A stretch of DNA of 64,000 nucleotides from Balneolaceae bacterium (GTDB lineage Bacteria; Bacteroidota; Rhodothermia; Balneolales; Balneolaceae). The first letter of the stretch is position 1, and every line of letters starts with the position of its first letter. Below the pieces are notes generated by a model. The model ran no database searches. It had not been told where the DNA came from and saw nothing but the letters and a program-made list of their open reading frames with translations. Below, in pieces: positions 9,865 to 26,326 of this stretch. The DNA lies in NCBI GenBank assembly GCA_034521495.1, contig JAXHMK010000004.1, forward strand, positions 310,001-374,000, in the 5' to 3' direction. A program made the position numbers and the translations under genes.

Positions 9865-10440
9865 ATGTTTTCAACCTCATGCCATTACGGTCTCCAGGCA
9901 ATGATATTTATTGCTCTGCACGCTTCAGAAAATGAAAATGTAGGGCTCACTACAATTGCCAAAGAGCAAGATATACCCAAACATTTTCTCAGCAAAATCC
10001 TTCAAATGCTGGTGAAGCATAAATTGCTTGTATCTATGAAAGGGCCTACGGGCGGATTCAATTTAAATCGTCCGGCTGATGAAATAACACTCATCGAAGT
10101 TATTGAAGCGATCGATGGATTGGACATGTTTAATAAATGCGGAATAGGATTCAAACGATGTAATGATGAACATCCATGCCCTATTCATCACGATTACAAA
10201 AAGGTCAGAAATCGCATCCAGGAGCTTTTTGAAACCAAAACACTCAATGAGCTGGTAAAAGATGTGGAGAGAGGGGATAGTATAGTAAGCCTGGGTAAAC
10301 CTCAGGATAGTTTAGAAGGCTTTGAAAACGTGTATCGTCAATCTGAACTGATTCAGATTCTCCATTGTCTTTATAGCCAGATGGAGATCCTGAATCAAGT
10401 TCAGGATGACGTAAGTTTTGCAAAGCCTTCTTATATTTGA
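9865..10440 (+). CDS. Rrf2-family transcriptional regulator A, with repeat-derived C-terminus
   Basis: A winged-helix regulator of the Rrf2 (IscR/NsrR/RsrR-like) family. The N-terminus MFSTSCHYGLQAM and the wing segment KGPTGGFNLNRPADEITL are typical. Cys92, Cys99 and Cys105 in the KCGIGFKRC..PCPIH segment match the family's iron-sulfur ligand region, so cluster sensing is likely. It is 63-65% similar by eye to the second copy at 11108, which is only 145 aa. The extra C-terminus from about residue 151 is the translation of a dispersed palindromic repeat (10315-10432), so the native protein probably ended near residue 145-150. It lies upstream of a ferredoxin gene. Confidence 0.88.
   Translation: MFSTSCHYGLQAMIFIALHASENENVGLTTIAKEQDIPKHFLSKILQMLVKHKLLVSMKGPTGGFNLNRPADEITLIEVIEAIDGLDMFNKCGIGFKRCNDEHPCPIHHDYKKVRNRIQELFETKTLNELVKDVERGDSIVSLGKPQDSLEGFENVYRQSELIQILHCLYSQMEILNQVQDDVSFAKPSYI
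10315..10432 (+). repeat. Palindromic dispersed element, family 1, copy 1 (inside rrf2 gene)
   Basis: A 118-base copy of an element that occurs three more times here (21342, 49784, 62794). The ends are inverted repeats: GAAGGCTTTG(C)AAAAC at the left and GTTTTGCAAAGCCTTC at the right. The interior holds two smaller palindromes, around CTGAACTGATTCAG and ATCCTGAATCAAGTTCAGGAT (shown in part: CCTGAATCAAGTTCAGG). This copy is shorter than the others by several small deletions, and its reading frame stays open through the whole element. Confidence 0.9.
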
Positions 10441-10553
10441 TTATGGTTATGGTTTAAAAAAAGACTGACCTATAACCAGGATTTTTTCAATAACTGAACA
10501 AAAGAAGTCATCTTTAGACTGTGAATAAATAAGCTTTTTATTACTTTAAATTG

Positions 10554-10574
10554 GAGTTTTTTATCTAAATATCT
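10554..10574 (+). promoter_or_regulatory. Shared element upstream of ferredoxin A
   Basis: A 21-base block whose core is TTTTTTRTCTAAATATCT, found 45 bases before the ferredoxin ATG at 10620. The same block with one mismatch lies 59 bases before the second ferredoxin gene (16369-16389). The surrounding DNA is not conserved, so the block is likely a promoter or operator core. An Rrf2 target or a promoter are both possible; which protein binds is not known. Confidence 0.55.
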
Positions 10575-10619
10575 TATATATAAAGTGTGATATAACCATT
10601 TAACCAGTGGTAAGCTATT

Positions 10620-10991
10620 ATGGCCTTATTGATCAACGACAGATGCATTAATTGTGGATACTGTGAAAAAGAGTGTCCAAACCAAGCCATTTATGAACCT
10701 GGAATGGAGTGGACATTATCAGAAGGTACAACATTGAAGGGGCGTTTCACTCTGTTTAACGGCAGGAACGCAGATGTAAATGATGAACACGAACCTCTGT
10801 CGGAAACCTATTATTTCATTGTTCCTGAAAAATGCGCAGAGTGTAAGAATATTTATTCAGAACCTCAGTGTATGGTTGTCTGTCCTAATCCTGAAAGCAT
10901 TGTTGTGCATCCCGGCTATAAAGAGACAGAAGCAGAATTGACCGAAAAACAGGCATTACTTAATCAACAAACCTTTACCACAAAAACTTAA
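10620..10991 (+). CDS. 2[4Fe-4S] ferredoxin A (Alvin/YfhL type)
   Basis: A 123 aa low-potential electron carrier. The first cluster motif is Cys9, 12, 15, 19 (CINCGYCEKEC) and the second is Cys72, 75, 84, 88 with CX2CX8CX3C spacing; the 8-residue insertion in the second motif is the hallmark of Allochromatium-type ferredoxins. A roughly 50-residue linker containing YEPGMEWTLSEGT separates the motifs and is longer than in the classic proteins. It is a paralogue of the ferredoxin at 16449 with identical cysteine positions. It lies between two Rrf2 regulators and upstream of PFOR, the likely electron donor. Confidence 0.92.
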   Translation: MALLINDRCINCGYCEKECPNQAIYEPGMEWTLSEGTTLKGRFTLFNGRNADVNDEHEPLSETYYFIVPEKCAECKNIYSEPQCMVVCPNPESIVVHPGYKETEAELTEKQALLNQQTFTTKT

Positions 10992-11107
10992 TACCAGAGG
11001 GAATTCAGTTCATACATATACCTGTGAAATTATTACCAGGAAATGATAGAACGACCTCTTTTTACAAATACTGACGAGAGACTGATACACATTTAAATTC
11101 GGCAATT

Positions 11108-11545
11108 ATGTTTTCAGCATCATGCCATTATGGATTACAGGCAATGTTTTACATCGCATCTCACTCTACAGAAGAAATCAATGTAGACTTGAATACAATT
11201 GCGCATGAACAAGACATTCCAAAACATTTTTTAAGTAAAATTTTACAATTGTTAGTCAAAAACAAACTTCTCATTTCAATGAAAGGACCCAATGGAGGAT
11301 TTCGTTTAAGCCGTCCTGCTGATTCAATAACACTCATTGAAATAGTAGAAGCCATCGATGGACTGGACATCTTTAAACAATGTGGAATTGGCTTTCGGGA
11401 GTGTGATGAAAGCGATCCATGCCCTATCCATACTGACTATAAAAAAATTAGAGATCATGTAAGATATCTGTTTGAGCAAAAAACATTGAATGCCCTTACA
11501 AAAGACGAACTGGGAGGAGATTTTCTTACAAACATTGCCACATAG
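11108..11545 (+). CDS. Rrf2-family transcriptional regulator B
   Basis: A 145 aa winged-helix regulator, paralogue of the one at 9865. It keeps the N-terminal MFSASCHYGLQAM, the helix-turn-helix region IAHEQDIPKHFLSKILQLLV, the wing KGPNGGFRLSRPADSITL, and the three cysteines at 92, 99 and 105 (QCGIGFREC..PCPIH), so it probably binds an iron-sulfur cluster and senses redox, NO or cluster status. It ends normally with no added tail. It is 73 bases upstream of nifJ in the same direction, which suggests control of PFOR and ferredoxin genes; this is inference from position. Confidence 0.92.
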   Translation: MFSASCHYGLQAMFYIASHSTEEINVDLNTIAHEQDIPKHFLSKILQLLVKNKLLISMKGPNGGFRLSRPADSITLIEIVEAIDGLDIFKQCGIGFRECDESDPCPIHTDYKKIRDHVRYLFEQKTLNALTKDELGGDFLTNIAT

Positions 11546-11617: not shown

Positions 11618-14600
11618 ATGTCAAAACATATGGTAACCATTGACGCAAATGAAGCTGCGGCGTATGTCGCTCATAAACTAAGTGAAGTAATCGCCATCTA
11701 CCCGATCACCCCGGCCTCTCCGATGGGAGAATGGTCAGATGAATGGTCCATGGCCGGGAAAAAAAATATCTGGGGCACAGTACCTGATGTGATTGAACTA
11801 CAAAGTGAAGGCGGTGCGGCAGGAACCCTGCACGGCGCTCTTCAAACGGGTGCTATGGCCTCTACATTTACGGCTTCTCAGGGTTTACTGCTCATGATGC
11901 CCAATCTCTATAAAATTGCCGGAGAATTGACGCCTGCTGTAGTACATGTAGCTGCACGAACCGTTGCTACTCATGCACTTTCCATCTTCGGAGACCACAG
12001 TGATGCCATGGCTGTACGTCCAACGGGCATGGCAATGTTAAGTTCTAACAGTGTGCAGGAAGCGATGGACATGGCCTTAATTGCACACGCAGCTACTCTT
12101 GAATCAAGAATTCCTTTCCTCCACTTTTTTGATGGATTCAGAACCTCACATGAAGTTCAAAAAATTCAGCAGATCGATCCTGAAATCATGAATCAGATGA
12201 TCGATGAGAACTGGGTTATTGCTCATAGAAAGCGGGCATTAACACCGGATAAACCTGTACTTCGGGGTACGGCACAAAACCCGGACGTATTCTTCCAGGC
12301 CCGGGAAACGGTGAATTCATATTATAATGCCTGTCCCGATATCGTTCAAAAAACAATGGACACGTTTGCTGAACTGGGCGGACGTTCTTATAAACTATTC
12401 CAATATCATGGCCCGGAAGATGCTGATCGTGTAATTATCCTCATGGGTTCTGGTGCTGAAACGGCTCATGAAACTGTTGAAAGACTCAATGCACAAGGCG
12501 AAAAAGTGGGTCTTATTAAAGTACGTCTTTTCAGGCCGTTCAGCATGTCTCACTTAATAGAGTCGCTTCCGGAAACTGTAAAAGGTATTGCCGTTCTTGA
12601 CCGTACAAAAGAACCGGGTAGTGCAGGAGAACCTCTTTATAATGATGTTCTGGCTGCGATGCATGAAAATCGTTCAGAAAAATGGAAAGATTTTACCCAT
12701 GATGTAAAAGTGATTAACGGCCGATATGGACTCTCCTCTAAAGAGTTTACCCCTCCTATGATTAAAACTATTTTTGATGAACTTGAGGAAGAGAAACCAA
12801 AAAATCACTTCACAATTGGCATTCATGATGATCTGACCAATACAAGCCTTGAATACAGCGATGAGGCCTGGGAAACTGAAGAAGGTGTATTTGAAGGATT
12901 ATTCTACGGACTGGGAGCTGACGGCACGGTAAGTGCCAACAAGAACTCCATAAAAATTATTGGTAACAATACCGACAACTATGCGCAGGGTTATTTCGTG
13001 TATGACTCGAAAAAATCAGGTGCAACAACGGTATCTCACCTGCGATTCGGTCCCAACCCGATCCGGTCAGCCTATTTGATTGACAAGGCTAAATTTGTGG
13101 CTTGTCACCAGTTCCAGTTTCTAAGCAAGCTGGATATGCTGCAACATGCCAAAAAAGGAGCAACATTCCTCTTGAATGCTCCCTATGATAAAGATGAAGT
13201 TTGGGACAACATCCCGGATAAGGTTCAAAAACAGATCATCGATAAGGAGCTGAAATTCTACAGCATTGATGCTTATAAGGTGGCCAAAGATACGGGAATG
13301 GGTACTCGCATCAATACAGTAATGCAAACCTGTTTCTTTGCCATTTCAGGCATTCTTCCAACTGATAAAGCAATTTTGCTGATTAAGGATGCCATCAAGA
13401 AAGCGTATGGTAACAAAGGCGAGAAGATTTTGAAAAGCAACTATGCTGCTGTAGACAACTCTCTTGAGAACCTTTTTGAAATTGAAGTACCCGATAAGGC
13501 AACTTCAGATGTTGAAATGAAACCACCTGTTCCTGAAGAAGCTCCTGAGTATGTACAAAAAGTGATTGCTGAAATTATTGCCGGAAATGGCGATGATCTT
13601 CCCGCAAGTGCTTTTGAACCGGATGGAACCTTCCCAACAGGAACCACAAAATGGGAAAAACGAAATATTGCCATGGAGATTCCTGTACTGGAACCGGATA
13701 TCTGTATTCAATGTGGTAAGTGTACGCTGGTTTGTCCCCATGCTGTAATCCGGATGAAGGCGTTTGACGGAGAACTTCTTGAAGCCTCTCCCGAAACCTT
13801 TAAGTATATGGATGCACGTGGCCGTGAATGGCCGGATAATACCAAGATCAGTATCCAGGTTTCACCGGAAGACTGTACAGGTTGTGAGCTTTGTGTGGAA
13901 GTTTGTCCGGCAAAAGACAGGAAAAAAGTCAGCCGTAAAGCTCTTAACATGGCGCCGATTGACCCACTTATCGAACAGGAAAAAGAGAACTGGGATTTCT
14001 TCCTTACACTACCTGAATACGATCGTTCTGAACTGAAAACAGAAACGGTTAAAGGGGCCCAGTTCCTGGAACCACTCTTTGAATTTTCAGGTGCCTGTGC
14101 CGGTTGTGGTGAAACTCCATACATCAAACTAATTACACAACTGTATGGCGATCGAATGGTAATTGCAAATGCCACAGGTTGTTCTTCCATCTATGGCGGC
14201 AACCTGCCATCTACGCCATATACCACAAACAGTGATGGGTACGGACCTGCCTGGTCGAACTCCCTGTTTGAAGATAATGCCGAGTTTGGCCTTGGTTTCC
14301 GACTCACAATTGACAAACAACAGGAACAAGCCCGTAATTTATTGAAAAATATGAACGGGGCGATTGATTCAGAGTTGAAAGAAGCTATTCTGAATGAGGA
14401 TCAATCTACTGAACCGGGAATCTATGAGCAGCGCGAACGTGTGAAAAAGCTCAAAAAGATCCTCGAAGATTCCGATGTAGAGAATGGCAAGATGCTTCAC
14501 AGCCTGGCTGATTACCTTGTGCGTAAAAGCGTCTGGATCTTTGGCGGTGACGGATGGGCCTATGATATCGGATACGGCGGCCTTGATCATGTACTGGCAA

Positions 14601-15187
14601 GCGGCCGCGATGTAAATATTCTTGTGATGGATACGGAGGTTTACTCCAACACCGGGGGACAGTGCTCCAAAGCAACACCGCTTGGTGCCGTAGCTAAATT
14701 CGCAGCCGCTGGTAAACGAGTGGCCAAGAAAGACCTTGGGCTGATGTCCGTCAATGGCGGTAAAGCCTACGTGGCAAGAGTAGCGATGGGTGCAAACGAC
14801 ATGCAAACGATGAAAGCGATTATTGAAGCCGAAAGATATCCCGGACCCTCAATTATCATCGCATACAGTCACTGCATTGCACATGGATATGACATGAAGA
14901 ATGGATTAACGCAGCAGAAACTTGCAGTTGATTCTGGCTATTGGCCGCTCTTCAGATACGATCCGTCTTTAGCAAACGAAGGGAAAAATCCGTTCCAGCT
15001 CGATTCCAAAGCACCTAAGATAGATCTGAAAGATTACGCATACAACGAGATGCGGTATCTGATGCTCGCCAAAGCGCAACCGAAGATTGCGAAAGAGCTC
15101 ATGACACAAGCTCAAAAAGAAGTGAAGGAGCAGTGGAAGATCTACGAGAAATACGAAAAAATGTATGAACCCAATGGGGAGGAATAG
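11618..15187 (+). CDS. nifJ: Pyruvate:ferredoxin (flavodoxin) oxidoreductase, single-chain
   Basis: Oxidises pyruvate to acetyl-CoA and CO2 and reduces ferredoxin, using thiamine diphosphate. It is 1189 aa, the normal length for the one-subunit enzyme. Domains in order: the pyrimidine-binding domain with YPITPASPMGEWSDEW (residues about 28-43); the CoA-related second domain; the gamma-like domain with GLGADGTVSANKNSIKIIG; a ferredoxin domain with Cys696, 699, 702, 706 and Cys753, 756, 759, 763; and the diphosphate-binding domain with GACAGCGETPY, ATGCSSIYGGNLPSTPY and GGDGWAYDIGYGG. All expected cofactor ligands are present. The start is supported by GGAGG about 9 bases upstream. A perfect hairpin follows at 15206. 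Confidence 0.97.
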   Translation: MSKHMVTIDANEAAAYVAHKLSEVIAIYPITPASPMGEWSDEWSMAGKKNIWGTVPDVIELQSEGGAAGTLHGALQTGAMASTFTASQGLLLMMPNLYKIAGELTPAVVHVAARTVATHALSIFGDHSDAMAVRPTGMAMLSSNSVQEAMDMALIAHAATLESRIPFLHFFDGFRTSHEVQKIQQIDPEIMNQMIDENWVIAHRKRALTPDKPVLRGTAQNPDVFFQARETVNSYYNACPDIVQKTMDTFAELGGRSYKLFQYHGPEDADRVIILMGSGAETAHETVERLNAQGEKVGLIKVRLFRPFSMSHLIESLPETVKGIAVLDRTKEPGSAGEPLYNDVLAAMHENRSEKWKDFTHDVKVINGRYGLSSKEFTPPMIKTIFDELEEEKPKNHFTIGIHDDLTNTSLEYSDEAWETEEGVFEGLFYGLGADGTVSANKNSIKIIGNNTDNYAQGYFVYDSKKSGATTVSHLRFGPNPIRSAYLIDKAKFVACHQFQFLSKLDMLQHAKKGATFLLNAPYDKDEVWDNIPDKVQKQIIDKELKFYSIDAYKVAKDTGMGTRINTVMQTCFFAISGILPTDKAILLIKDAIKKAYGNKGEKILKSNYAAVDNSLENLFEIEVPDKATSDVEMKPPVPEEAPEYVQKVIAEIIAGNGDDLPASAFEPDGTFPTGTTKWEKRNIAMEIPVLEPDICIQCGKCTLVCPHAVIRMKAFDGELLEASPETFKYMDARGREWPDNTKISIQVSPEDCTGCELCVEVCPAKDRKKVSRKALNMAPIDPLIEQEKENWDFFLTLPEYDRSELKTETVKGAQFLEPLFEFSGACAGCGETPYIKLITQLYGDRMVIANATGCSSIYGGNLPSTPYTTNSDGYGPAWSNSLFEDNAEFGLGFRLTIDKQQEQARNLLKNMNGAIDSELKEAILNEDQSTEPGIYEQRERVKKLKKILEDSDVENGKMLHSLADYLVRKSVWIFGGDGWAYDIGYGGLDHVLASGRDVNILVMDTEVYSNTGGQCSKATPLGAVAKFAAAGKRVAKKDLGLMSVNGGKAYVARVAMGANDMQTMKAIIEAERYPGPSIIIAYSHCIAHGYDMKNGLTQQKLAVDSGYWPLFRYDPSLANEGKNPFQLDSKAPKIDLKDYAYNEMRYLMLAKAQPKIAKELMTQAQKEVKEQWKIYEKYEKMYEPNGEE

Positions 15188-15277: not shown

Positions 15278-16285
15278 ATGAATTTAGAAACAAAATACCT
15301 TGGCCTTTCCCTTAAAAATCCTCTTGTTCCGTCGGCCTCCCCGCTTTCAAGCGAAGTGGACAAAGTTAAAAAACTTGAGGATGCCGGTGCATCAGCAGTG
15401 GTGATGTATTCTCTGTTTGAGGAGCAGATTACTATGGAAAATGAGGCACTTGACCATTTTTTGAACACTCCGCAGGAAAGCTATGCCGAAGCACTCAGTT
15501 ATTTTCCGGAGCCGCAAACATATCACAATCTTCATGCGGAAGATTATCTTGAGCAAATAGAAACTCTTAAGAATGCCGTGGATATTCCCGTCATTGCCAG
15601 TATCAACGGTATATCAGAAGGGGGATGGATGTCGTACGCCAAAAAAATGGAAGAAGCCGGAGCAGATGCTCTTGAACTCAATATTTACTATATCGCAGCC
15701 GATCCCGATTTGACATCGACCGAAGTTGAGGAGATGTATATCAATGATGTAAAAGCTGTAAAAAAAACGGTGAACATCCCGGTGTCGGTAAAACTTGGCC
15801 CATACTTTAGTGCCTTTGGAAACATGGCCACCCGTATTGAAAAAGCCGGAGCCGACGGCCTCGTCTTATTTAATCGGTTCTACCAACCCGACTTTAACCT
15901 TGAAGACCTTGAAGTTGAGCCAAGTCTCGCACCAAGCAGCTCTTTTGAAAAAAGGCTGCCGTTACGCTGGATCGCTATGTTGCGGCCACATCTGTCTTGC
16001 AGTTTAGCCGCCACAACAGGAATTCACACCGCAAAAGATGTGATAAAAATGATATTGGCTGGTGCCGATGTTGCCATGATGGCTTCTGTACTTCTCTATA
16101 AAGGTTCCGAAGTGTTAACTACTATGGAAAAAGAGATTAAACTCTGGATGGAAGAAAAAGAGTATGCTTCTCTTGATGAAATGAAAGGAGCTATGAGCTC
16201 TGCCTCTGTCGGAGATCCAAGCGCCTTTGAAAGAGCTAATTACATTAAAGTATTGCAAGGTTTTCGATTAGACAATTTTAGATAA
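15278..16285 (+). CDS. Dihydroorotate dehydrogenase-like flavoprotein
   Basis: A 335 aa TIM-barrel flavoprotein of the DHODH/PreA superfamily. The N-terminus MNLETKYLGLSLKNPLVPSA, ADALELNIYYIAADP, VSVKLGPYF, ADGLVLFNRF and the C-terminal AGADVAMMASVLLY blocks are typical of FMN-dependent barrels. The product normally linked with this gene beside PFOR is annotated only as DHODH-like; a pyrimidine role is not shown, because no pyr genes are nearby. No iron-sulfur motif is seen, so an external electron carrier is expected; the ferredoxin at 16449 is a candidate partner. It is in the same direction as nifJ and the downstream fdx-korAB genes. Confidence 0.85.
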   Translation: MNLETKYLGLSLKNPLVPSASPLSSEVDKVKKLEDAGASAVVMYSLFEEQITMENEALDHFLNTPQESYAEALSYFPEPQTYHNLHAEDYLEQIETLKNAVDIPVIASINGISEGGWMSYAKKMEEAGADALELNIYYIAADPDLTSTEVEEMYINDVKAVKKTVNIPVSVKLGPYFSAFGNMATRIEKAGADGLVLFNRFYQPDFNLEDLEVEPSLAPSSSFEKRLPLRWIAMLRPHLSCSLAATTGIHTAKDVIKMILAGADVAMMASVLLYKGSEVLTTMEKEIKLWMEEKEYASLDEMKGAMSSASVGDPSAFERANYIKVLQGFRLDNFR

Positions 16286-16368
16286 CCTAACTATCTATAC
16301 TGAATCTAAATTTCAATCATTAACCAGGATAATTGTTCAAACTACAGCTTTTGATTATCTTATTTATA

Positions 16369-16389
16369 GAGTTTTTTGTCTAAATATCT
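16369..16389 (+). promoter_or_regulatory. Shared element upstream of ferredoxin B
   Basis: Second copy of the block found at 10554-10574, again with the core TTTTTTGTCTAAATATCT preceded by GAG. It lies 59 bases before the ATG of the ferredoxin at 16449 in a 163-base intergenic gap, which suggests that fdxB-korA-korB has its own promoter. Confidence 0.55.
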
Positions 16390-16448
16390 AAATTACGTTT
16401 TGAGAGAAAAACTTGAATAAAATCACCTTTAAAATAATTTAAAATATC

Positions 16449-16799
16449 ATGTCAGTTTTTATCACCGATACATGTATCAATTGCGCAGCATGCGAACCAG
16501 AATGCCCAAATCAGGCAATTTACGAACCCGGTGCCGAATGGTCTATGGCCGAGGGAACTGAACTTTCGGGTACAGTCTCTCTTTTAAACGGAACCGAGGT
16601 TGACGCAGATGAAATGCAGGAACCGCTTTCAGACGAGTTTTATTTTATTGTTCCTGACAAATGCACAGAGTGTACAGGATTCCATGAAGAGGAACAGTGC
16701 ATTGCATTTTGCCCGGTTCCCGATTGTATTATTCCGGATCCGGATCATGAAGACAGTGAAGATGAACTTATGGCAAGACACGATTTCTTGCACGGATAA
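16449..16799 (+). CDS. 2[4Fe-4S] ferredoxin B (Alvin/YfhL type)
   Basis: A 116 aa ferredoxin, paralogue of the one at 10620. Cluster cysteines are at 9, 12, 15, 19 and 72, 75, 84, 88, the second motif again with an 8-residue insertion (CTECTGFHEEEQC). The linker keeps YEPGAEWSMAEGT. An additional cysteine lies in the tail (VPDCIIPDPDHEDSEDE) and the C-terminus is strongly acidic. It is 60 bases upstream of korA and so likely the electron acceptor of the 2-oxoacid oxidoreductase. Confidence 0.92.
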   Translation: MSVFITDTCINCAACEPECPNQAIYEPGAEWSMAEGTELSGTVSLLNGTEVDADEMQEPLSDEFYFIVPDKCTECTGFHEEEQCIAFCPVPDCIIPDPDHEDSEDELMARHDFLHG

Positions 16800-16859
16800 T
16801 TTTTTCTTCCTCATTCTACATTTAAAAAAATACTTTCAACGCATCAAAAATCACTGGTT

Positions 16860-18707
16860 ATGACTGAAACAGTTTTAACTCCTGAGATGAAGAAAGTCGT
16901 AGTTCGATTTTCCGGCGACTCTGGAGACGGCATGCAATTAACCGGAGACATGTTTTCTCAATCTTCCGGTATTGCGGGTAACGATTTAACAACTATTCCT
17001 GATTTCCCTGCTGAAATCAGGGCTCCCCAGGGAAGTATCGGAGGCGTATCCAGTTTTCAGATCCAGATCGGAGGTACTGAGATCTATACTCCCGGTGATG
17101 ATGTGGATGTTTTGGTTGTGATGAACCCGGCAGCTCTGGCGGCAAATTTAAAATTTCTGAAATCGGGCGGGGTAATCATAGCGGATAAGGATAACTTCAA
17201 TTCCCGAAATCTAAAAAAAGCCAATTTCGATGAAAATCCACTCGAGGACAGTACACTCAAAGACTATTTTGTAATTGAAGCTCCGGCTACATCTCTTACC
17301 AAAGAGGCTTTGAAAAATCTCGGCCTTAAGATGAATGAGATTACACGCAGCAAAAACATGTTTGCTCTCGGTGTAGTTCTGTATCTGTTTAGCAGGCCTC
17401 TTGATAAAACCATAGACTTTATCGAGAAAAAGTTCATTAAAAAACCAACGTTGGTAGAAGCCAATAAACTTGCATTAAATGCAGGTTATAATTTTGCGCA
17501 CAGTACTGAACTTATTGGGCAATCTGTTCATATACCACCGGCTAAACTGCCAAAAGGCACCTATCGGAATATCGATGGTAATAAAGCAGTTGCATGGGGA
17601 CTCCTGGCAGCAGCAGAGAAAAGCGGCAGAAAACTATCCTTAAGCTCTTACCCGATAACACCTGCTTCCGAAATTCTGCATGAAATTTCGGCCCGCAAGG
17701 ATATGGGGGCAATTGTACTTCAGGCGGAAGATGAAATTGCTGCTGTTACCGCTGCAATTGGAGCCGCATTTAGTGGAAATCTCTCAGCTACAACCACATC
17801 AGGGCCGGGAGTATCCCTAAAATCCGAAGCGATGGGCCTTGCGGTAATTGCAGAAATACCACTTGTAATTGTTAATGTACAACGCGCCGGGCCTTCAACC
17901 GGACTGCCTACAAAAACAGAACAGGCCGACCTTAATCAAGCTCTCTATGGGCGCCACGGAGAAGCTCCTATGGTTGTAATGGCTGCAAGCTCTCCCGATG
18001 ATTGTTTTCATTATAGCTATAAAGCTGCAAAAATTGCTATGGAACATGTTACACCCGTTCTTTTACTTTCAGATTCATATCTGTCGAGCGGAACAAGTCC
18101 ATGGAGAATTCCGGAAAAAGAGGAGTGGGAAGAGATTAATATTCCAAGATTTAAAGGGACTCCAGATGAATGGGAACCTTATATGCGTCAGCCGGAATTC
18201 TTAAACCGATACTGGATGGTTCCGGGCGACAAAGGCTTTGAACATCGAATTGGGGGGCTGGAAAAGAAAGAGATAACCGGTAACCTGACGTATGAGCCGC
18301 TGAATCATGAGAAAATGACGAAAATAAGGGAGGAAAAAATTCAGCGAATCGCAAAGAAACTTCCAAAACAAAAAGTAATCGGAGCAGATTCGGGTAAATT
18401 ATTAATTGTGGGGTGGGGAAGCACTTATGGTGCTATCAATACAGCCGTTACAGAATTGATAGAAAACGGAGAAGAGGATATTGGTTTCACTCACTTCAAC
18501 TACATTAATCCACTTCCTGAAAATACAGAAGAAATTTTAGGTAACTATGATCAGATTTTAGTCTGCGAGGTCAATAATGGACAGTTTGTAAATTATTTGC
18601 GATCAAAGTTTTATCAATATTCGTTTAAACAGTTTAATAAAATCCAGGGACAACCCTTCTTCACTTCAGAAATAAAAGCTGAAATTATAAATCTATTATC
18701 GGAGTAG
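16860..18707 (+). CDS. korA: 2-oxoacid:ferredoxin oxidoreductase, alpha (gamma-alpha fused) subunit
   Basis: Subunit of 2-oxoglutarate (or related 2-oxoacid):ferredoxin oxidoreductase. It is 615 aa. The N-terminal 190 residues form the gamma domain (FSGDSGDGMQLTGDMFSQSS, then FPAEIRAPQGSIGGVSSFQI). The pyrimidine-binding alpha domain begins near residue 235, with SSYPITPASEILHEIS at about 261-276 and TTTSGPGVSLKSEAMGLA later. The fused gamma-alpha layout is typical of KorA in aerobes and Bacteroidota. korB starts 2 bases after the stop. Substrate specificity is assumed from the family: 2-oxoglutarate is most likely, replacing the NAD-linked dehydrogenase of the TCA cycle, but branched-chain 2-oxoacids cannot be excluded. 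Confidence 0.93.
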   Translation: MTETVLTPEMKKVVVRFSGDSGDGMQLTGDMFSQSSGIAGNDLTTIPDFPAEIRAPQGSIGGVSSFQIQIGGTEIYTPGDDVDVLVVMNPAALAANLKFLKSGGVIIADKDNFNSRNLKKANFDENPLEDSTLKDYFVIEAPATSLTKEALKNLGLKMNEITRSKNMFALGVVLYLFSRPLDKTIDFIEKKFIKKPTLVEANKLALNAGYNFAHSTELIGQSVHIPPAKLPKGTYRNIDGNKAVAWGLLAAAEKSGRKLSLSSYPITPASEILHEISARKDMGAIVLQAEDEIAAVTAAIGAAFSGNLSATTTSGPGVSLKSEAMGLAVIAEIPLVIVNVQRAGPSTGLPTKTEQADLNQALYGRHGEAPMVVMAASSPDDCFHYSYKAAKIAMEHVTPVLLLSDSYLSSGTSPWRIPEKEEWEEINIPRFKGTPDEWEPYMRQPEFLNRYWMVPGDKGFEHRIGGLEKKEITGNLTYEPLNHEKMTKIREEKIQRIAKKLPKQKVIGADSGKLLIVGWGSTYGAINTAVTELIENGEEDIGFTHFNYINPLPENTEEILGNYDQILVCEVNNGQFVNYLRSKFYQYSFKQFNKIQGQPFFTSEIKAEIINLLSE

Positions 18708-18709
18708 AT

Positions 18710-19726
18710 ATGCAGGTAGAAACAGTTAAAAAGAACGATCAAAACCAACTGACCAGAAAAGATTTTAAAAGCGATCAATCGGTTCGATGGTGTCCGGGGT
18801 GTGGCGATCATTTGATTCTGGCAACAATGCAGAAAGCATTTGCCAAAATGGGTACAAAAAAAGAAAATATACTCAGTATTTCGGGGATTGGGTGCTCATC
18901 GCGAATCACCTATTATCTTGATACATATGGTATACACTCCATTCATGGACGAGCGATTGCCGTTTCTACCGGGGCAAAACTGGCTAATCCAGATTTGAAT
19001 GTTTGGGTATTCACAGGAGATGGCGATTCAATGGCCATTGGCGGCAATCATTTTATCCACGCATGCCGAAGAAATATCGATCTGAATGTGGTTGTCTTTA
19101 ACAACAAGATTTACGGCATGACGAAAGGCCAGTCTTCTCCTACAACTCCCATCGGCCAAAAAACCAAAACCGCACCTGAAGGCAGTTATGACAATCCGTT
19201 TAATATTGGAGAAATAGCAATCGGGGCAGGAGCTACATTTTATGCCCGTGTTCCTGATAACGATCTGAAATTACTTGAAGACGTTATGCTGCAAGCTCAT
19301 CAACACAAAGGGATTTCCATTATTGAAGTACTGCAAAACTGTGTGATTTTTACGGATGGAATTCATGAACAGATCACCAGCAAAGATTCTAAAGATGAAA
19401 ATCAGGTTGTTCTTAAGCATGGAGAGCCGATACGGTTTGGCAAAGAAGAGATGGAAGGACTAAAAATTAATGGTATGCGGCTTGAAAAAACATCGGCAGA
19501 TGATACAATTATACATGATGCAGAAGAAGCGGATACAAACATGCATCTGTCATTAACCAGGTTAAAATTACCTGATTTTCCTGTAGCAACCGGAGTAATC
19601 CGTAAGGTTAAATCCGAACCTTATGAGAAAAGAGTTCATGATGTAATAGCCGATCAAAAAAACAGAACTGAATTTAAAAGTGTTGAGGATCTATTCCATA
19701 GCGGTAATACCTGGGTAATCAATTAG
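18710..19726 (+). CDS. korB: 2-oxoacid:ferredoxin oxidoreductase, beta subunit
   Basis: Thiamine-diphosphate- and [4Fe-4S]-binding beta subunit, partner of korA. It is 338 aa. Cluster cysteines are in WCPGCGDH (Cys28, Cys31) and SGIGCSSRITYYLDTYG. The diphosphate/Mg motif is FTGDGDSMAIGGNHF (about residues 101-115) with NNKIYGMTKGQSSPTTP following. Start and spacing (2 bases from korA) indicate translational coupling. It converges with the FNR gene, 103 bases between the stops. Confidence 0.94.
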   Translation: MQVETVKKNDQNQLTRKDFKSDQSVRWCPGCGDHLILATMQKAFAKMGTKKENILSISGIGCSSRITYYLDTYGIHSIHGRAIAVSTGAKLANPDLNVWVFTGDGDSMAIGGNHFIHACRRNIDLNVVVFNNKIYGMTKGQSSPTTPIGQKTKTAPEGSYDNPFNIGEIAIGAGATFYARVPDNDLKLLEDVMLQAHQHKGISIIEVLQNCVIFTDGIHEQITSKDSKDENQVVLKHGEPIRFGKEEMEGLKINGMRLEKTSADDTIIHDAEEADTNMHLSLTRLKLPDFPVATGVIRKVKSEPYEKRVHDVIADQKNRTEFKSVEDLFHSGNTWVIN

Positions 19727-19829: not shown

Positions 19830-20774
19830 TCAATATACTTCCAGGAACATTCTTTCACCGGCCTTCACTTTTCTTTTGAGCTGTTTCCGGGTCCAGTCCA
19901 TAGGATCTACATCTTTGACCTCATCTTTCAGATTCAGGTAATCGTACAAGCCCATCATACCTAAAATCCGGAAGATTCCGGTTTCCATACCTTTTAAACC
20001 GCAGACATAAATCAGCGTATTGTTTTTCTCAAGAATGGGGAACATCAATGCCTTTTGGTCAATGATGGTATACTGCACATATGGTTTCGTGCCATCCGGC
20101 CGAGGATCTTCCCTGGATATCGATTTCAGATAGTGAAAATTTTTATGCTTTTCGGCAAGCTCTTCAAAGAGAGGCCGGTACAACAGGTCCGTGCGATACG
20201 GGCAGCCGAATGAGAGTACAATATCATTATTCATCCCCGAGCGCAACAGGTCCAAAACCATTCCCCGAAATGGCGCAATTCCGGTTCCGGTTGCCATAAA
20301 TATATAATTATAGTCCTCCGGATTTTCAGGCAGGATGAATCGCTTTCCGCTTGGGCCGGTCATTTGCAATTTAGCACCTGCACTTTGGTCACACATATAA
20401 TTCGAACAGACTCCAAGAGTTAGTTTATGCGTTTTCCAGTGTTCGTTAATCTCTCGTTTTACAGTAGTTGCATATATTTTTCCATCTCCATACTCTCCAC
20501 CTGTGGGTGAGCAGGTTGAATAGAGCCGCAGTTTGTGAGGGCGTCCGTTTTCATCCTCGCCGGGAGGCAATACACCAACGGCCTGTCCCGGTACAATACT
20601 GTTTTCAAGCAGTGTGCCGGATACATCAAACTCAATATGTCTCACAAAATTGGGGCTGGCGGCATCGGTACAGATTTCATTTTTTGTAATGGGTACCTCT
20701 GCCGGATTGCTGGGTTTGTAATGGAACATATCAACGTCCGGCAGTCGAATTTCCTGGTCCTTTACATCAGGCAT
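19830..20774 (-). CDS. Plant-type ferredoxin-NADP(+) reductase
   Basis: FAD enzyme that transfers electrons between reduced ferredoxin and NADP(H). It is 314 aa from the ATG at 20774; a TTG three codons upstream is less likely. Signs of the plant-type fold: RLYSTCSP for FAD binding, a following CSNYMCD segment, the NADP domain with GTGIAPFRGM, and an aromatic last residue after FLEVY, which stacks on the flavin in this family. The location opposite korB fits a role in making NADPH from ferredoxin reduced by PFOR and KOR. This differs from the thioredoxin-reductase-like FNRs common in many Gram-positive bacteria. Confidence 0.92.
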   Translation of the reverse strand: MPDVKDQEIRLPDVDMFHYKPSNPAEVPITKNEICTDAASPNFVRHIEFDVSGTLLENSIVPGQAVGVLPPGEDENGRPHKLRLYSTCSPTGGEYGDGKIYATTVKREINEHWKTHKLTLGVCSNYMCDQSAGAKLQMTGPSGKRFILPENPEDYNYIFMATGTGIAPFRGMVLDLLRSGMNNDIVLSFGCPYRTDLLYRPLFEELAEKHKNFHYLKSISREDPRPDGTKPYVQYTIIDQKALMFPILEKNNTLIYVCGLKGMETGIFRILGMMGLYDYLNLKDEVKDVDPMDWTRKQLKRKVKAGERMFLEVY

Positions 20775-20876
20775 GGTGTTCAAATATTGATTTTATTTTT
20801 GTGTAGTGTTCCAGTCAAATACAGCGACTGTATCGGGTTAAATAAAAGTGGCATAAAAAATTGGTTATTGCGCTGA

Positions 20877-21031: not shown

Positions 21032-21341
21032 CTTTTTTAAATACCTCTGCTGTTATTAATCATTTTATATCCAGCAGATGGATATTCAACGATCTCCCCT
21101 TCAAAGAAATGTATTTTCTTCAATTTTGAAACTTAAATCCCCTGTTTTCTTCGGTGTTGTTTACTGCTTGGTTTGATATGGTTTAATTCCCCGACCTTCT
21201 GGGCTGAAAAAGACAAAAGTCCTTCTTTTTTGATTTTGAAGAGGAGAGCGAACTTGTCCGCCGTACAAGACGTTGAAATGCGGGCGGTGTGAGCCGGGGT
21301 GTGAGTTTCTAAGTTCTGAATTGATCATATCTAAATTCTGA

Positions 21342-21472
21342 GAAGGTTTTGCAAAATTATGACCGTCATCCTGAACTTGATTCAGGATCTCCTGATACTG
21401 GCTATAAAGACGAATGGAGAATCTGAATCGAGTTCAGATTGACGCATACCCACGGTTTTGCAAAGCCTTCTC
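21342..21472 (-). repeat. Palindromic dispersed element, family 1, copy 2
   Basis: A 131-base copy in the opposite orientation to the other three. Its complement reads GAAGGCTTTGCAAAACC and continues almost base for base with the copy at 49784, including the central CTTTATAGCC and the two internal palindromes. Confidence 0.9.
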
Positions 21473-21750
21473 TGAAGCATTACGGATCATCCCCATTGTC
21501 CATCGAAAGGAAGACACTTCAAGAATAACGTATAGGAGGCTTTGAAATACCCATCTGTCGGTTGTTTTTACCGGCTGATGGGTGTCCCCAACCCGTCAGC
21601 CCGCACATACAGCGTGCAGACGGGCAGTAATGCAAATCCCTCGTATAGTTAACTTAAATTTTTTGGATGTGATGATACCTCACGGGTTCTGCCCCGAAAT
21701 AGTTCCTATAAAAGACGAAACAAAGTAATCCATTGAGTGACTACCACTTA

Positions 21751-22109
21751 TTAAACAAACTCAGGGGCTTTCCCGGGAACAACAGCTCTCACGCTTCGAT
21801 GCGATGTTTTGGTATCCGCCCCTGAGTCCGTTTCTGGCAATTCAACCTCAAACAGCTTTGCCAGATTTTGTTTATCGCTCTGTATTTCGAATCTGCAATC
21901 TCTCTATCTTTTTTGCCATGCGTTTTTTGGATGGCCTCCTTGATTTGTAATTTTGCAGTCTCTCCATCCGGTATGTTTAAAATGCCGAAAAAACAGGCCT
22001 TTATTACCGTGTTGATTTCATCATCAATACTACACTCTCTTGTTACTTTACACGCCACTCTTGCAACAGCCTCGTTGGCCTCTAATGTAGTTGTTTGGAG
22101 ATGTTTCAT
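21751..22109 (-). pseudogene. Internally deleted, frameshifted nifJ (PFOR) remnant
   Basis: A relic of a second pyruvate:ferredoxin oxidoreductase gene. It starts at an ATG with GGAGG upstream, like the intact nifJ. The first 22 residues (HLQTTTLEANEAVARVACKV) match the N-terminus of PFOR (HMVTIDANEAAAYVAHKL). The next part jumps directly to the region around residue 565 of PFOR: INTVIKACFF versus INTVMQTCFF, then IKEAIQKTHGKK versus IKDAIKKAYGNK and SKYRAIN versus SNYAAVD. More than 500 codons are therefore missing. A one-base loss in an A-run near 21866-21869 shifts the frame; the original frame continues as LAKLFEVELPE and ends after APEFV at 21751. Divergence from the intact gene suggests an old or separately acquired copy. 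Confidence 0.8.
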
Positions 22110-22608
22110 TTTTCCTCCGTATAACCTCTTCAAGGTTCACTATATTTAAAATAGGTAACAGCATACTCCTGTAAAACAGGGAGAAACTGAAAACTGCATA
22201 GGGGATTTGCTTAGTTGTACGCCGGACAGCTTGTCCGGCAATACTAAATTTAAATCTTGCCTGGATATTTTGATTTCAGACTCACTGCCACATCGTTTCA
22301 GTTTGGTATGTGTTTAGCGGATTGAATTAAACAACCTGACAGAGCACCGTGCTTTTCGGCTCCTGTCAGAGTTGTGGGCCAAGACAATATCTTCAAAAAC
22401 TGCACCCACTATCCGAGATAGCGCAAGCGTCCCGCTTGTGCTCGTAGTTCATGTCTATACAGGGCACGAGCGGGACGCTCGCGCCATCAGGCATTAGGAA
22501 ACTTAAACCGTGGCGGGATAATCTGGATTCAGTATGCCTGCCTGACATCCTCGACTTGTCTTAGAAATAACGGGTAGAGGGAACGGGCAGGCTGCCCGTT
22601 GTACAAAA
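22110..22608. other. Intergenic region with several inverted repeats
   Basis: No gene seen. It holds a short hairpin GCCGGACAGCTTGTCCGGC (22221-22239), a CTGACAG..CTGTCAG hairpin near 22337-22369, a long imperfect hairpin (22421-22484), and ACGGGCAGGCTGCCCGT at about 22583-22599 just past the end of the membrane protein gene, which may act as its terminator although it has no T-run. Confidence 0.6.
22421..22484. repeat. Long imperfect inverted repeat
   Basis: Arms of 21 bases, GCGCAAGCGTCCCGCTTGTGC and its near complement with three mismatches, around a 22-base loop. The sequence is GC-rich compared with its surroundings and looks like a REP-type intergenic element. Given in part only: the left arm begins GCGCAAGCGTCCCGC. 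Confidence 0.7.
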
Positions 22609-23469
22609 TCATTCAACATTTTTTAAAACAAGGGCAGTGCAGGCAATGGACACCAGCAATATAGTTGGAATGATAAAAATGACCGGGATGATATTCTGTC
22701 CTAACAGCCCCATGGCAATAATCTTGGCAAGAAGAGCTGTCATCAGAATGCTGAGAAAAACCAGGTACACGGGGCCAAGGAGGAATCCCATTGGTTTTTT
22801 CTGTATGAAAAGTACTCCTGTAACAAATGCAATTGGAAGAAGCAGCCCGAGGTCCAGTCCCTGTACAATCAGGGTTGTATAGTGTTCTGTTTGTTTTGGA
22901 ATAATTGTCCCGTCAAGCAGTGGCGGAACCACTACTCCGAGCCAAAGTATGCCAATAGCAAGCGTATTCAAGATGAGAAATCCACCAGCTGTTTTAACCG
23001 GCGTCTTTTTCGAAAATCGGTCGGGTAGTTCATCCATATCAAACGAAAACATCGTCAAAGTAAACCCAAAAAACGAGGTTCCAAGCAGCGCTGCATACAG
23101 CAGGAAAAGAACGTTGTACATTGCCATCACCAGGTAAAAAAGATAGGTAACCAAAAAGTAGCCAAGTGTACCTGCCAGCAAAAAACGGCCTTTCAGCGAT
23201 CCATTCCTCGTCCACAAAAATGAGATCCATAAAAACGGAATCGCAATGAAAAGTGTCACATAATCCTGTGCAATGCCCTGTGGCGCTACATCGGCCGACA
23301 TATCTCTGTACAATCCCTCACCATAAATTTGAACGGTTTCTCCCCTGATGGATTCATACTCATAAGACCCCGGACCGCCGCTTGAAAATATTCCCATGGA
23401 AGCAGCCACGGCTGCCATGATCGATATCATCAAAACCAGAACTTTTACCGGCTTTTGATTCTTCATCAC
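22609..23469 (-). CDS. Integral membrane protein of unknown function
   Basis: A 286 aa protein with about eight hydrophobic helices. The first helix (VLVLMISIMAAVAASMGIF) is followed by an approximately 45-residue hydrophilic extracytoplasmic stretch (GGPGSYEYESIRGETVQIYG and onward), then alternating helices to the C-terminus. No catalytic motif or family signature is recognisable to me. It begins 5 bases after the stop of the upstream small membrane protein gene (23475-23882), so the two form an operon and may work together. Confidence 0.8.
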   Translation of the reverse strand: MMKNQKPVKVLVLMISIMAAVAASMGIFSSGGPGSYEYESIRGETVQIYGEGLYRDMSADVAPQGIAQDYVTLFIAIPFLWISFLWTRNGSLKGRFLLAGTLGYFLVTYLFYLVMAMYNVLFLLYAALLGTSFFGFTLTMFSFDMDELPDRFSKKTPVKTAGGFLILNTLAIGILWLGVVVPPLLDGTIIPKQTEHYTTLIVQGLDLGLLLPIAFVTGVLFIQKKPMGFLLGPVYLVFLSILMTALLAKIIAMGLLGQNIIPVIFIIPTILLVSIACTALVLKNVE

Positions 23470-23474
23470 GGTTC

Positions 23475-23882
23475 CTATTTATCTGATCGGTCAATCATTC
23501 GGATCCAGGAAACCAGAGTAATAAGTATGCCGGTCACCCCATAGATCAATTGAAGAGGAGGATTCGAAATATAACCGATCATATATATTTCAACGGCGAT
23601 CCATATCATAAGAGCAATACCCGTAATAAAGGAACCTGTAATCGCCCAGTCTTTGCCTTTCCACAAACCGGCATAACAGATCATCGGAAAGATGCCCAGT
23701 ACCACAAAAAGTATCACGCCGGGAATTAAATAGGTGTCAAATATTGAGTTTAATAACCATTCCTGCGGAATGCCTAAAGCCTCACCGGTTGGATCCAGGA
23801 TCAAGCCAAACCCTCCTGCCAAACCGCTCAGTCCTTGAAAGCCGACCAAAATATTTAGAATCCTCTTGAATAAAGTTTTCAT
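23475..23882 (-). CDS. Small membrane protein of unknown function
   Basis: A 135 aa protein with four predicted helices (LVGFQGLSGLAGGFGLIL; YLIPGVILFVVLGIFPMICY; ITGSFITGIALMIWIAVEIYMIG; LIYGVTGILITLVSW). It is the first gene of a two-gene operon with the larger membrane protein. The four-helix pattern with a central WKGKDWAI loop resembles small uncharacterised membrane proteins of many Bacteroidota; no function can be assigned. Confidence 0.78.
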   Translation of the reverse strand: MKTLFKRILNILVGFQGLSGLAGGFGLILDPTGEALGIPQEWLLNSIFDTYLIPGVILFVVLGIFPMICYAGLWKGKDWAITGSFITGIALMIWIAVEIYMIGYISNPPLQLIYGVTGILITLVSWIRMIDRSDK

Positions 23883-24044
23883 ACTCTGTAATCTTGATTT
23901 TACTGTTCTGCTATAAAATAGAATAGATTACAATAATTTTGAATAGGGAAAATTCCTATAATCAGTTAGATATGCCTGGAACCCAAGCAGATGTAGAAGC
24001 TTATTATCTTTTCACTCCGACCATTCAACCAATTTGATCCATAA

Positions 24045-24074
24045 AAAAAGCGGTGAGATCACTCCCACCGCCTG
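24045..24074 (-). terminator. Intrinsic terminator of collagen-like lipoprotein gene
   Basis: On the minus strand, GCGGTG and CACCGC pair around a 10-base loop and are followed directly by seven T. It lies about 25 bases past the stop at 24097. Confidence 0.8.
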
Positions 24075-24096
24075 AATAAACATTGAGTTTTATTCT

Positions 24097-25014
24097 TTAA
24101 TCCCGGATGCCAAAGTATTTCTTAACCTGCTCATAATTGTTGAGATCGATTGGCAGGCTTTTAGCTTTGGCATTTAAACTCTTGCCCCCGGGGATAAGTA
24201 CATAACGAAAATCTATTTTCGTACTAAGCACCATTGGAAGAGTCGTAGAATTGTCTGGATCCAAATAGCCAATCGTCAATTGCTGAGGTTTTAACTCAAA
24301 AAAGAAACTATATTTGGGGTTAGCCGGGGTATCTCCCTTACCTATGGGAAGTGAATAAATAGACTGTGTATTTAAATTTGTATAAACCTTAACAACACCA
24401 CTATCTAATATTTCTTGTGTCATTGCGTTTGCTGAAATATCAAAATAACGATATTTGGTTGCATTAAATGTCCCCTCTTCCCATTGCTGTGGATTTACCC
24501 AATCTGAATACATTACATTGGCTGTCCCTTTCAGATTGATAGGCGTACCCCAACCACTGTCGGTTTTTGGGCCATAAAGATCGAATGTTGACGTGTTCAA
24601 AAAATAGTCGCCGGGTTGTCCCATTCCTGCATCAGGGGCTGAGGTTCCCGAATGTATTTGACTGCCGTCTTCGCCATCTTCACCGTCTGCCCCGGGAGGT
24701 CCCTGTAAACTAAGCGGTGTACCCCAACCCGACTCATTTTTCGGTCCGTAAAGTTCAGCATTATCACGGTCCAGATAATAGTCACCAACAGATCCAGTGT
24801 CAGAAGAGGGTGCGCCGGTTCCAGCCAATATCATACTGCCATCTTCACCGGCGGGTCCTACAGGTCCCTCAGGACCTTGTTCACCAGCCGGACCTTCAGG
24901 GCCTTCGGGTCCTTCACAGGCCATAAAAATTCCTAACCCCAAAACCAGTGATAAACATAGAGTCATGAGTCTTTTTAAATAAATGATTGAGCTTTTTTCT
25001 AAGTAGTTATTCAT
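24097..25014 (-). CDS. Collagen-like repeat lipoprotein
   Basis: A 305 aa probable surface lipoprotein. The N-terminal hydrophobic segment (LCLSLVLGLGIFMAC) ends in a lipobox with the lipidated cysteine at about residue 33. A Gly-X-Y collagen-like tract follows (GPEGPEGPAGEQGPEGPVGP). Then two tandem units of about 58 residues each contain GxYYLDRDNAELYGPK/ FDLYGPK, SGWGTPL or SGWGTPI, and a short further Gly-X-Y tract (GPPGADGEDGEDG). The last 130 residues are globular and unknown. Such units are common in outer-surface and appendage-like proteins. An inner Met (24966) would shorten the N-terminus and still keep the lipobox. Confidence 0.85.
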   Translation of the reverse strand: MNNYLEKSSIIYLKRLMTLCLSLVLGLGIFMACEGPEGPEGPAGEQGPEGPVGPAGEDGSMILAGTGAPSSDTGSVGDYYLDRDNAELYGPKNESGWGTPLSLQGPPGADGEDGEDGSQIHSGTSAPDAGMGQPGDYFLNTSTFDLYGPKTDSGWGTPINLKGTANVMYSDWVNPQQWEEGTFNATKYRYFDISANAMTQEILDSGVVKVYTNLNTQSIYSLPIGKGDTPANPKYSFFFELKPQQLTIGYLDPDNSTTLPMVLSTKIDFRYVLIPGGKSLNAKAKSLPIDLNNYEQVKKYFGIRD

Positions 25015-25297
25015 TGTAAGTGCTTTTGATTATTTCTCTAATGAAATGAAAGTGTTCTGTAGCTATTGATACTTCTGTTAGATTGGTTTTTCATTAAATT
25101 TATAGCCATCTATTAGTAGAAGTGAGCCTGTTTATGTAAGGCATCTGATCGGCTAAAAAATAAAATTGTGTTTGCAGAAGCCAAAACCATCCCGGCCTTC
25201 AACTTCAAAGAATCAGTTCTTCAAGTTGATCTCTAAGTCAAATACCATCAGTTGTACTTTTCAATCTAAATCTTCAAATTTGAAGATTGATTAACCG

Positions 25298-26326
25298 ATG
25301 TCTAACCATCATCCAGATAAACATGTTGATATGATTTTCTCAAACTCTCTCAAATGCACACTATTCATTTTGATATCTATTGGACTTAGCCTGAACCCTA
25401 AAACCTCTTACTCCCAAATGAATCAATCTCAAACCCTTGCCGAACAACTGGGCTACCCAGCCGATGCTAAACTCCTTATTATCCATGCCGATGATTTAGG
25501 TGTTGCCCACTCAAAAAATGCAGCCGGTACTTCAGCCTGGGAGCAGAACGGTATCAATTCGGCCTCCATTATGGTTCCTACACCCTGGTTTCCTGAAATT
25601 GCGCACTATGCCAATAAAAATCCCAGGTTCGATTTGGGCCTGCACCTCACATTGACCTCCGAATGGATGTATTATAAGTGGGATGGCGTGCTTCCATCAA
25701 ACGAAATTTCTACCCTTTTAACTGACAAAAATTACTTCTACCCAACAGTAGCTGAGGTGGTGGAAAATGCCGATCCCACTGAGATTGAAAATGAGATCCG
25801 TGCCCAGGTGGAACGTGCATACCAGTTTGGCCTTGAGCCAACTCACCTCGACAGCCATATGGGTACGTTGTTTTCTCATCCCGAATTTTTTGAAGCATAC
25901 CTGCGAGTCGGAGAGGAATACAGACTTCCGGTTCTGGTTCCTGATAATTGGATTGAAGATGCGATGTTTTCTGATGAAGAGGCACGAAATCGAATTATGC
26001 AACTGTCTGAGGAGTACCCGGTACATGTACAGGAAGTGATTATGCTGGATTCAAGCACTCCTGAAAGCGATTGGTTTGAAAAATACGACAGCGAAATTAA
26101 AAACCTGGAACCTGGCTTAAACGAAATTTTGCTGCACCCCGCGTATGATGATGCCGAGATGAATGCCATGACCATAAACTACCATCATAATTTTGGTGCC
26201 GAATGGCGCCAGCGCGATTACGACTATTTTACAAGCCAACGAGTGAAAGATCTCCTTGAAGAAGAGAAGATCAAACTGGTTACATGGCGGGAAATTCAGA
26301 AATTAATGTATCCGGATTCAGAATAG
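25298..26326 (+). CDS. Exported YdjC/ChbG-like carbohydrate deacetylase
   Basis: A 342 aa protein with an N-terminal signal (SLKCTLFILISIGLSL, cleavage near SYSQ). The YdjC fold is shown by LLIIHADDLGVAHSKN (metal-binding Asp pair), RFDLGLHLTLTSEW and THLDSHMGTLFSHPEFF (metal-binding histidines), and LHPAYDD near the end. Family members remove acetyl groups from oligosaccharides such as chitobiose. Secretion suggests action on external or periplasmic glycans. No Shine-Dalgarno is obvious; an inner ATG at 25331 is a possible start. It converges with the gene ending at 26459 across a hairpin terminator. Confidence 0.85.
   Translation: MSNHHPDKHVDMIFSNSLKCTLFILISIGLSLNPKTSYSQMNQSQTLAEQLGYPADAKLLIIHADDLGVAHSKNAAGTSAWEQNGINSASIMVPTPWFPEIAHYANKNPRFDLGLHLTLTSEWMYYKWDGVLPSNEISTLLTDKNYFYPTVAEVVENADPTEIENEIRAQVERAYQFGLEPTHLDSHMGTLFSHPEFFEAYLRVGEEYRLPVLVPDNWIEDAMFSDEEARNRIMQLSEEYPVHVQEVIMLDSSTPESDWFEKYDSEIKNLEPGLNEILLHPAYDDAEMNAMTINYHHNFGAEWRQRDYDYFTSQRVKDLLEEEKIKLVTWREIQKLMYPDSE

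Follow-up and report, generated by a model that had tools for sequence, protein, structure and literature searches.

A decayed second nifJ gene next to a retained ferredoxin-NADP reductase-like gene: a probable exchange of PFOR operons in a Balneolaceae lineage

Gene content of the locus and anatomy of the relic

The window analyzed here, a 64,000-nucleotide stretch of a Balneolaceae genome (G000 below), carries an intact pyruvate ferredoxin oxidoreductase (PFOR) gene, nifJ1, that heads a cluster of co-oriented genes ending close to FNR2, a ferredoxin-NADP reductase-like gene on the opposite strand (Table 1). Upstream of FNR2 and on its strand, the minus strand at 21746-22109 is a dead nifJ gene, whose reading frame (21751-22109) translates as MKHLQTTTLEANEAVARVACKVTRECSIDDEINTVIKACFFGI.... 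An Rrf2-type regulator gene (11108-11545) flanks a ferredoxin gene a short way before nifJ1; the gene on the other flank of that ferredoxin gene (9865-10440) matches the same loci and is probably Rrf2 as well, and genes of the Rrf2-type/ferredoxin kind found at 9865-11545 recur before nifJ1 in relatives. On the far side of the relic are two minus-strand genes (22609-23882; 286 and 135 aa) that are 82-84% identical in the sister genome G015 and for which, at the thresholds applied, neither Pfam nor NCBIfam gave a match, and then a gene for a collagen-like repeat protein (24097-25014; 305 aa, 86% identical in G015). Searches of the window returned no Rfam match at gathering scores and no tRNA.

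Table 1. Positions of the PFOR-related genes, relic segments and repeats in the window.
Feature	Position	Strand	Description
nifJ1 (PFOR), intact	11618..15187	+	1189 aa; POR_N, POR, EKR, PFOR_II, Fer4 and TPP domains
dhod1, ferredoxin, korA-type (POR + POR_N), korB-type (TPP)	15278..19726	+	Pfam matches
FNR2	19830..20783	-	80% identical to the FNR after nifJ2-dhod2 in G011; NAD_binding_1
Dispersed repeat, ~130 bp, MITE-like	21341..21472		between relic and FNR2; inverted ends, GAAGGCTTTGCAAAAC...
Second dispersed repeat, ~116 bp	21531..21650		between relic and FNR2; genome copies
Relic block C	21746..21862	-	other frame; nifJ2 residues ~617-652, then two TAA stops
One-base loss	21863..21870	-	single gap in G011 alignment; frame change in translations
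Relic block B	21870..22049	-	nifJ2 residues ~555-614, end of POR domain
Deletion junction	22045..22056	-	residues 19-22 joined in frame to residues 554-556
Relic block A	22050..22109	-	nifJ2 codons 1-19/20
Relic leader (former nifJ2 leader)	22110..22215	-	noncoding; alignable with G011 nifJ2 leader

The relic is best read against the intact nifJ2 gene of G011, a member of the same genus. Recognizable homology begins at ~22215, about 106 bp before the start codon, from where a 185-bp alignment with G011 nifJ2 (75% identity) runs into the first codons of the relic; the ATG and a GGAGG 4 bases upstream of it are present, as in G011. Identity to G011 (bases, then residues) is 48/54 and 16/18 in block A (codons 2-19), 136/180 and 41/60 in block B, and 80/108 and 24/36 in block C. 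Between blocks A and B an internal deletion has removed approximately 1,602 bp, or ~534 codons, in frame; this length is obtained by lining up the similar words ATAAGGT and ATAAAGT of G011, and the rough figure is 1,601. The blocks matched by G011 show a 6-base overlap at this junction word, which has 7 bases with one mismatch and was read in G011, the sequence before the deletion no longer being visible. Past the one-base loss the frame of the ATG continues to a TGA, giving a reading frame of 106 aa, while homology goes on in another frame until residue ~652 and stops there at two stop codons, so that the C-terminal ~540 codons of nifJ2 are absent.

A first-pass annotation of this DNA had proposed that a second PFOR gene survives here as a fossil, with some 500 codons deleted from its interior, and that its start and ribosome-binding site are preserved; both proposals are borne out, the former by two blocks collinear with a single G011 gene. 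It had joined the first 22 residues to the region around residue 565; a join of the start to an internal region does exist, with the joined points lying at the residues given in Table 1. The same annotation placed a one-base loss in an A-run. The single-base frameshift is real, but it lies in or beside CAAAATC (~21863-21870) and the exact base, in or out of the A-run, cannot be fixed. Beyond what was then described, the C-terminal half of the gene and dhod2 have been lost, and FNR2 is the surviving operon partner.

Approximately 1 kb with two hairpin-forming dispersed repeats now separates the relic from FNR2. For the repeat at 21341-21472 the genome offered 205 candidates; of the 40 that were scored, 36 are other places with 87-98% identity. 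This repeat folds end to end as a hairpin (-68.5 kcal/mol for a 142-base stretch); it is MITE-like in that its many copies are short, non-coding and bounded by inverted ends, and is too short for a transposase. The repeat at 21531-21650 was found at 3 further places with 97-98% identity among 40 scored, and its end at 16 places in its own genome. Upstream of the relic, an inverted repeat of 25 bases whose arms are 22 bases apart (22417-22488) is possibly another repeat family. The interval between the relic and FNR2 contained no other part of nifJ2 or dhod2 scoring above shuffled sequence (79 of 100 shuffles as good).

Descent of the relic and operon context in relatives

Protein and DNA alignments both trace the relic to nifJ. 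It matched two segments of the window's own NifJ in adjacent frames, residues 552-613 in the first and 615-646 in the second, with a combined E of 1e-12, and its start weakly matched residues 3-27 (E 0.017). Against the NifJ of G011 (numbering after Met) it matched residues 554-630 (E 4e-22) and 1-27 (E 4e-6), and the shifted frame matched residues 616-652 (E 2e-11, tblastn). The local alignment with G011 scored 300, well beyond the best of 100 Markov shuffles (35.5). In a DNA search of 28 genomes of the genus, the G011 gene matched window positions 22045-22153 at 79% and 21746-22050 at 74%, and these two blocks lie collinear in that one gene, 1.6 kb apart. Over 342 bases (114 codons) the relic is 77% identical to G011 nifJ2 and 49-57% identical to six other nifJ genes, namely those of G019, G021 and G003, which belong to the same clade as G011, and three nifJ1 genes including the window's own. 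A weak match to the relic protein in G024 (contig C241, E 0.04) was taken as chance, as it lies on the opposite strand of a long reading frame that we call nuoG-like from its translation, without a family search.

In a tree of 38 NifJ rows, the proteins of G003, G011, G016, G019 and G021 formed one clade (99/96), here called nifJ2, and the window NifJ1 fell in another together with that of G015, which it matches at 91%. The relic is of the nifJ2 type, as judged by its DNA identity, which is highest to a nifJ2 gene, and by the FNR2 gene downstream. Among the 28 genomes, with one genome per species and several of them fragmented, nifJ2 was found in 5, nifJ1 in 18 (twice in G002) and neither in 5, and no genome had both intact. 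Types were called by the tree, or by identity for genes in pieces (G001, G012 and G042); three of the five genomes with neither type are only 57-81% complete, and contig ends cut nifJ in G001, G006, G012, G021 and G042. Two fragments of nifJ starts (G006:C200 and G042:C92) were considered as further relics and rejected, because each match stops at a contig end and thus reflects an assembly break of nifJ1. The order nifJ1-dhod1-ferredoxin-korAB was the same in all 10 of the fetched loci of relatives having a complete nifJ1, and in both the window and G015 the cluster adjoins FNR2. G002 has two such clusters (L101 and L102), and in the tree the NifJ of one of them has the G013 protein as its closest neighbor.

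The nifJ2 gene has other neighbors. In G011, G019, G016 and G003 it is followed on the same strand by dhod2, a dihydroorotate dehydrogenase-like gene, and FNR2; the G021 contig breaks off within nifJ2, and the sole FNR match of that genome has 56% identity. At identities of 69% and above, FNR2 occurs in 7 of the 28 genomes: four with nifJ2, two with nifJ2 scars (G000 and G001, see below), and G015. The window FNR2, downstream of the relic and on its strand, is thus the last survivor of a former nifJ2-dhod2-FNR2 operon. As it is the only FNR match (E 1e-20) in G000, G015, G011, G016 and G003, these genomes may well have needed to keep it.

The link of the relic to FNR2 is firm, and its upstream synteny with G011 is loose. 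Homologues of window genes 35709, 27146 and 33510 lie upstream of G011 nifJ2 in a different order, the nearest upstream neighbors of the relic (22609-26326) have no homologues in the 14-kb stretch around G011 nifJ2, and the collagen-like gene has weak matches only, farther off. In the matching gap of G015 no trace of the relic, of its leader, or of nifJ2 plus dhod2 exceeded shuffled sequence (of 100 shuffles, 17, 30 and 5, respectively, did as well), and the loss of nifJ2 in G000 and G015 may have been shared or separate.

Substitution pattern and a second scar

Changes polarized with the nifJ2 genes of G019, G021 and G003 and the window nifJ1 as outgroups were distributed differently on the two branches. 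On the relic branch they numbered 16, 7 and 15 at codon positions 1, 2 and 3 (25 nonsynonymous and 13 synonymous), whereas on the G011 branch they numbered 3, 3 and 15 (7 nonsynonymous and 14 synonymous; Fisher p 0.028 for relic versus G011); the 38 relic changes are few, and third positions are hard to polarize at such distance. Relaxed selection is thus combined with a frame disrupted by the internal deletion, the frameshift and two stops, as in a pseudogene. The 106-aa product lacks the domain set of a functional NifJ (POR_N, POR, EKR, Fer4 and TPP-binding), which the intact window NifJ has, and a Pfam search with it was empty at E 0.01. The unpolarized differences between the relic and G011 are third-position-heavy (22/10/46), and the overall identity of the relic resembles that of the living FNR2 genes of the two genomes (75%, differences 52/21/163), which indicates that part of the divergence is older than the death of the gene. 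Block A is better preserved (48 of 54 bases, 89%, identical to G011) than blocks B and C together (216 of 288, 75%; p 0.033). This excess might represent retained constraint at the start, although block A was likewise the more alike part, if less so, in 5 of 6 intact nifJ pairs.

A comparable scar was found in a second species. On contig C145 of G001, nifJ2 codons 1-40 are fused in frame to dhod2 codons 306-330, and the DNA is little decayed, being 93% identical to G021 nifJ2 over 343 bp. The end of the scar contig (L111, reverse strand) overlaps the contig with FNR2 by 81 bases, with the FNR2 match starting 444 bp past the stop of the scar, and homologues of window genes 26459 (45%) and 28184 (52%) lie upstream of the scar, with the order and strand that these genes have upstream of the window relic. 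G001 also has a nifJ1 without stops, spread over two contigs. The two scars are alike in that the same gene suffered a deletion that kept its start and the reading frame, with FNR2 following and a nifJ1 in the genome; they differ in that the G001 scar is younger and its breakpoints join nifJ2 codon 40 to dhod2 codon 306. An RpoB tree grouped G001 with G021 (100/100) and G011 with G000 and G015 (85/99, moderate). This tree covers 25 of the 28 genomes (G009 and G040 gave no match and G042, a fragment, was omitted) and is partly resolved, with 10 of 22 inner branches open and the bootstrap not settled; its G012 row is partial and has an absurdly long branch, probably because the wrong frame was picked. 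The G001 scar is an event independent of the window deletion. Given this scar and the intact nifJ1, the swap from nifJ2 to nifJ1 has happened at least twice.

Probable replacement of the nifJ2 operon and alternative readings

We consider the relic to be a dead nifJ2, the remnant of a nifJ2-dhod2-FNR2 operon that was lost after the nifJ1 set came to lie beside FNR2, and put the probability of this explanation at about 0.93. An ancestor of the window lineage would have had the operon as it exists in G011 today. The divergent nifJ1-dhod1-ferredoxin-korAB set would then have settled next to FNR2 in the ancestor that G000 and G015 share, with nifJ1 as the presumed replacement of nifJ2, and redundancy of nifJ2 and dhod2 may have been what exposed them to loss. 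The in-frame deletion of ~1.6 kb, perhaps between short similar words, would have taken residues ~20-553, and further losses (the C-terminal half together with dhod2, and one base) and the landing of two dispersed repeats in the debris probably followed, while FNR2, without another FNR match in the genome, would have been retained. Bacterial pseudogenes can arise by internal deletion between short repeats. The relic resembles such pseudogenes in its junction word, the later loss of a base and the dispersed repeats, and, with this mechanism being a possible one here, shows nothing beyond what is usual for them. Compared with the nifJ2 genes of G011, G003, G016, G019 and G021, it shares the leader, the start and two collinear blocks with G011 (74-79% DNA identity) and the FNR2 downstream with four of the five, and differs in lacking residues ~20-553 and everything past ~652, in its frameshift and in the absence of dhod2.

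The sequence of these events bears on whether the two sets were ever active together. That nifJ2 was already dead when nifJ1 arrived would agree with the absence of genomes having both intact, but we regard it as unlikely in view of two observations. The first is a mosaic in the dhod1 gene of G015 (L100:12179-13183). Inside a tract this gene is 77.5% identical to G011 dhod2 and 65.0% to its G000 orthologue, while outside it the values are 69.3% and 78.9%; the tract bounds used for these percentages (columns 405-645) were picked after a sliding-window profile, and the tracts of the test itself are wider. A permutation test, which takes sites as independent, gave p 0.0002 with each of four outgroups when G011 was the donor, and p 0.0022, 0.0064, 0.0020 and 0.13 with G019 dhod2 as the donor. 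In the control with G000 dhod1 as the recipient, p was 0.24, 0.034, 0.70 and 0.057, one of the four being nominally low. No signal of conversion from nifJ2 to nifJ1 was seen with G015 (p 0.20) or G000 (p 0.60) as the recipient. The tract suggests gene conversion from a dhod2 that then still existed, which would require a dhod2 donor after the split of G000 and G015; import from another strain would give the same pattern. The second observation is the little-decayed scar in G001, a genome with nifJ1. Together they hint that both sets once coexisted. The first-pass annotation had inferred two nifJ genes about 7 kb apart in this lineage; a second, lost nifJ type is evident and coexistence has this indirect support, but the spacing does not carry over, since ~7 kb is the distance today, deletions and two dispersed repeats included.

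Another possibility is that the stump persists because FNR2 uses its promoter, ribosome-binding site and in-frame start as a leader, so that only deletions sparing translation were tolerated. In its favor, both scars (G000 and G001) retain leader and start and have an in-frame junction, block A is more conserved than the remainder, and FNR2 comes directly after nifJ2-dhod2 in four genomes. However, two in-frame junctions out of two are expected by chance in 1 of 9 trials and represent just two cases, the higher identity of block A is seen to some extent in most intact pairs as well, the window relic took a later frameshift and is separated from FNR2 by ~1 kb with two hairpin repeats, and the corresponding gap in G015 has no recognizable leader. 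We therefore find this function improbable. Slightly more doubtful still is the generalization that, where nifJ1 displaces nifJ2, selection for FNR2 expression favors in-frame deletions and such fossils are recurrent functional operon leaders.

A functional small gene built from nifJ2 pieces and held by selection would account for 106 open codons with a ribosome-binding site, but is very improbable given the excess of nonsynonymous changes, the homology that runs on past the frameshift in the other frame, and the occurrence of the joined form in 1 of 28 genomes; the 106-aa frame is most likely debris without function. Descent from the window nifJ1 by partial duplication, which could be entertained from the shared family and 62% DNA identity over 191 bp, was rejected and has next to no likelihood, as G011 nifJ2 is far closer over the same columns (77% versus 56.5%) and has the leader and operon context in common with the relic.

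The relic itself is an ordinary pseudogene, and what is gained from it is its context, in which PFOR operons have repeatedly been exchanged while the FNR stayed in place: a gene replacement seen afterwards, not a new system. We found no paper on pyruvate ferredoxin oxidoreductase in Rhodohalobacter, the genus of the nearest named relative encountered (Rhodohalobacter sulfatireducens WB101, 91% NifJ match), and the Balneolaceae papers that matched pyruvate and ferredoxin oxidoreductase were, by their titles, not on this subject. For annotation, the 106-aa frame should serve as a warning, since it is not a gene. For the biology of the group, a short reading frame becomes a step of an enzyme swap in which one PFOR type gave way to another and the redox neighbor FNR2 was retained, and the independent scar in a second species provides a replicate for comparing what is kept and what is lost.
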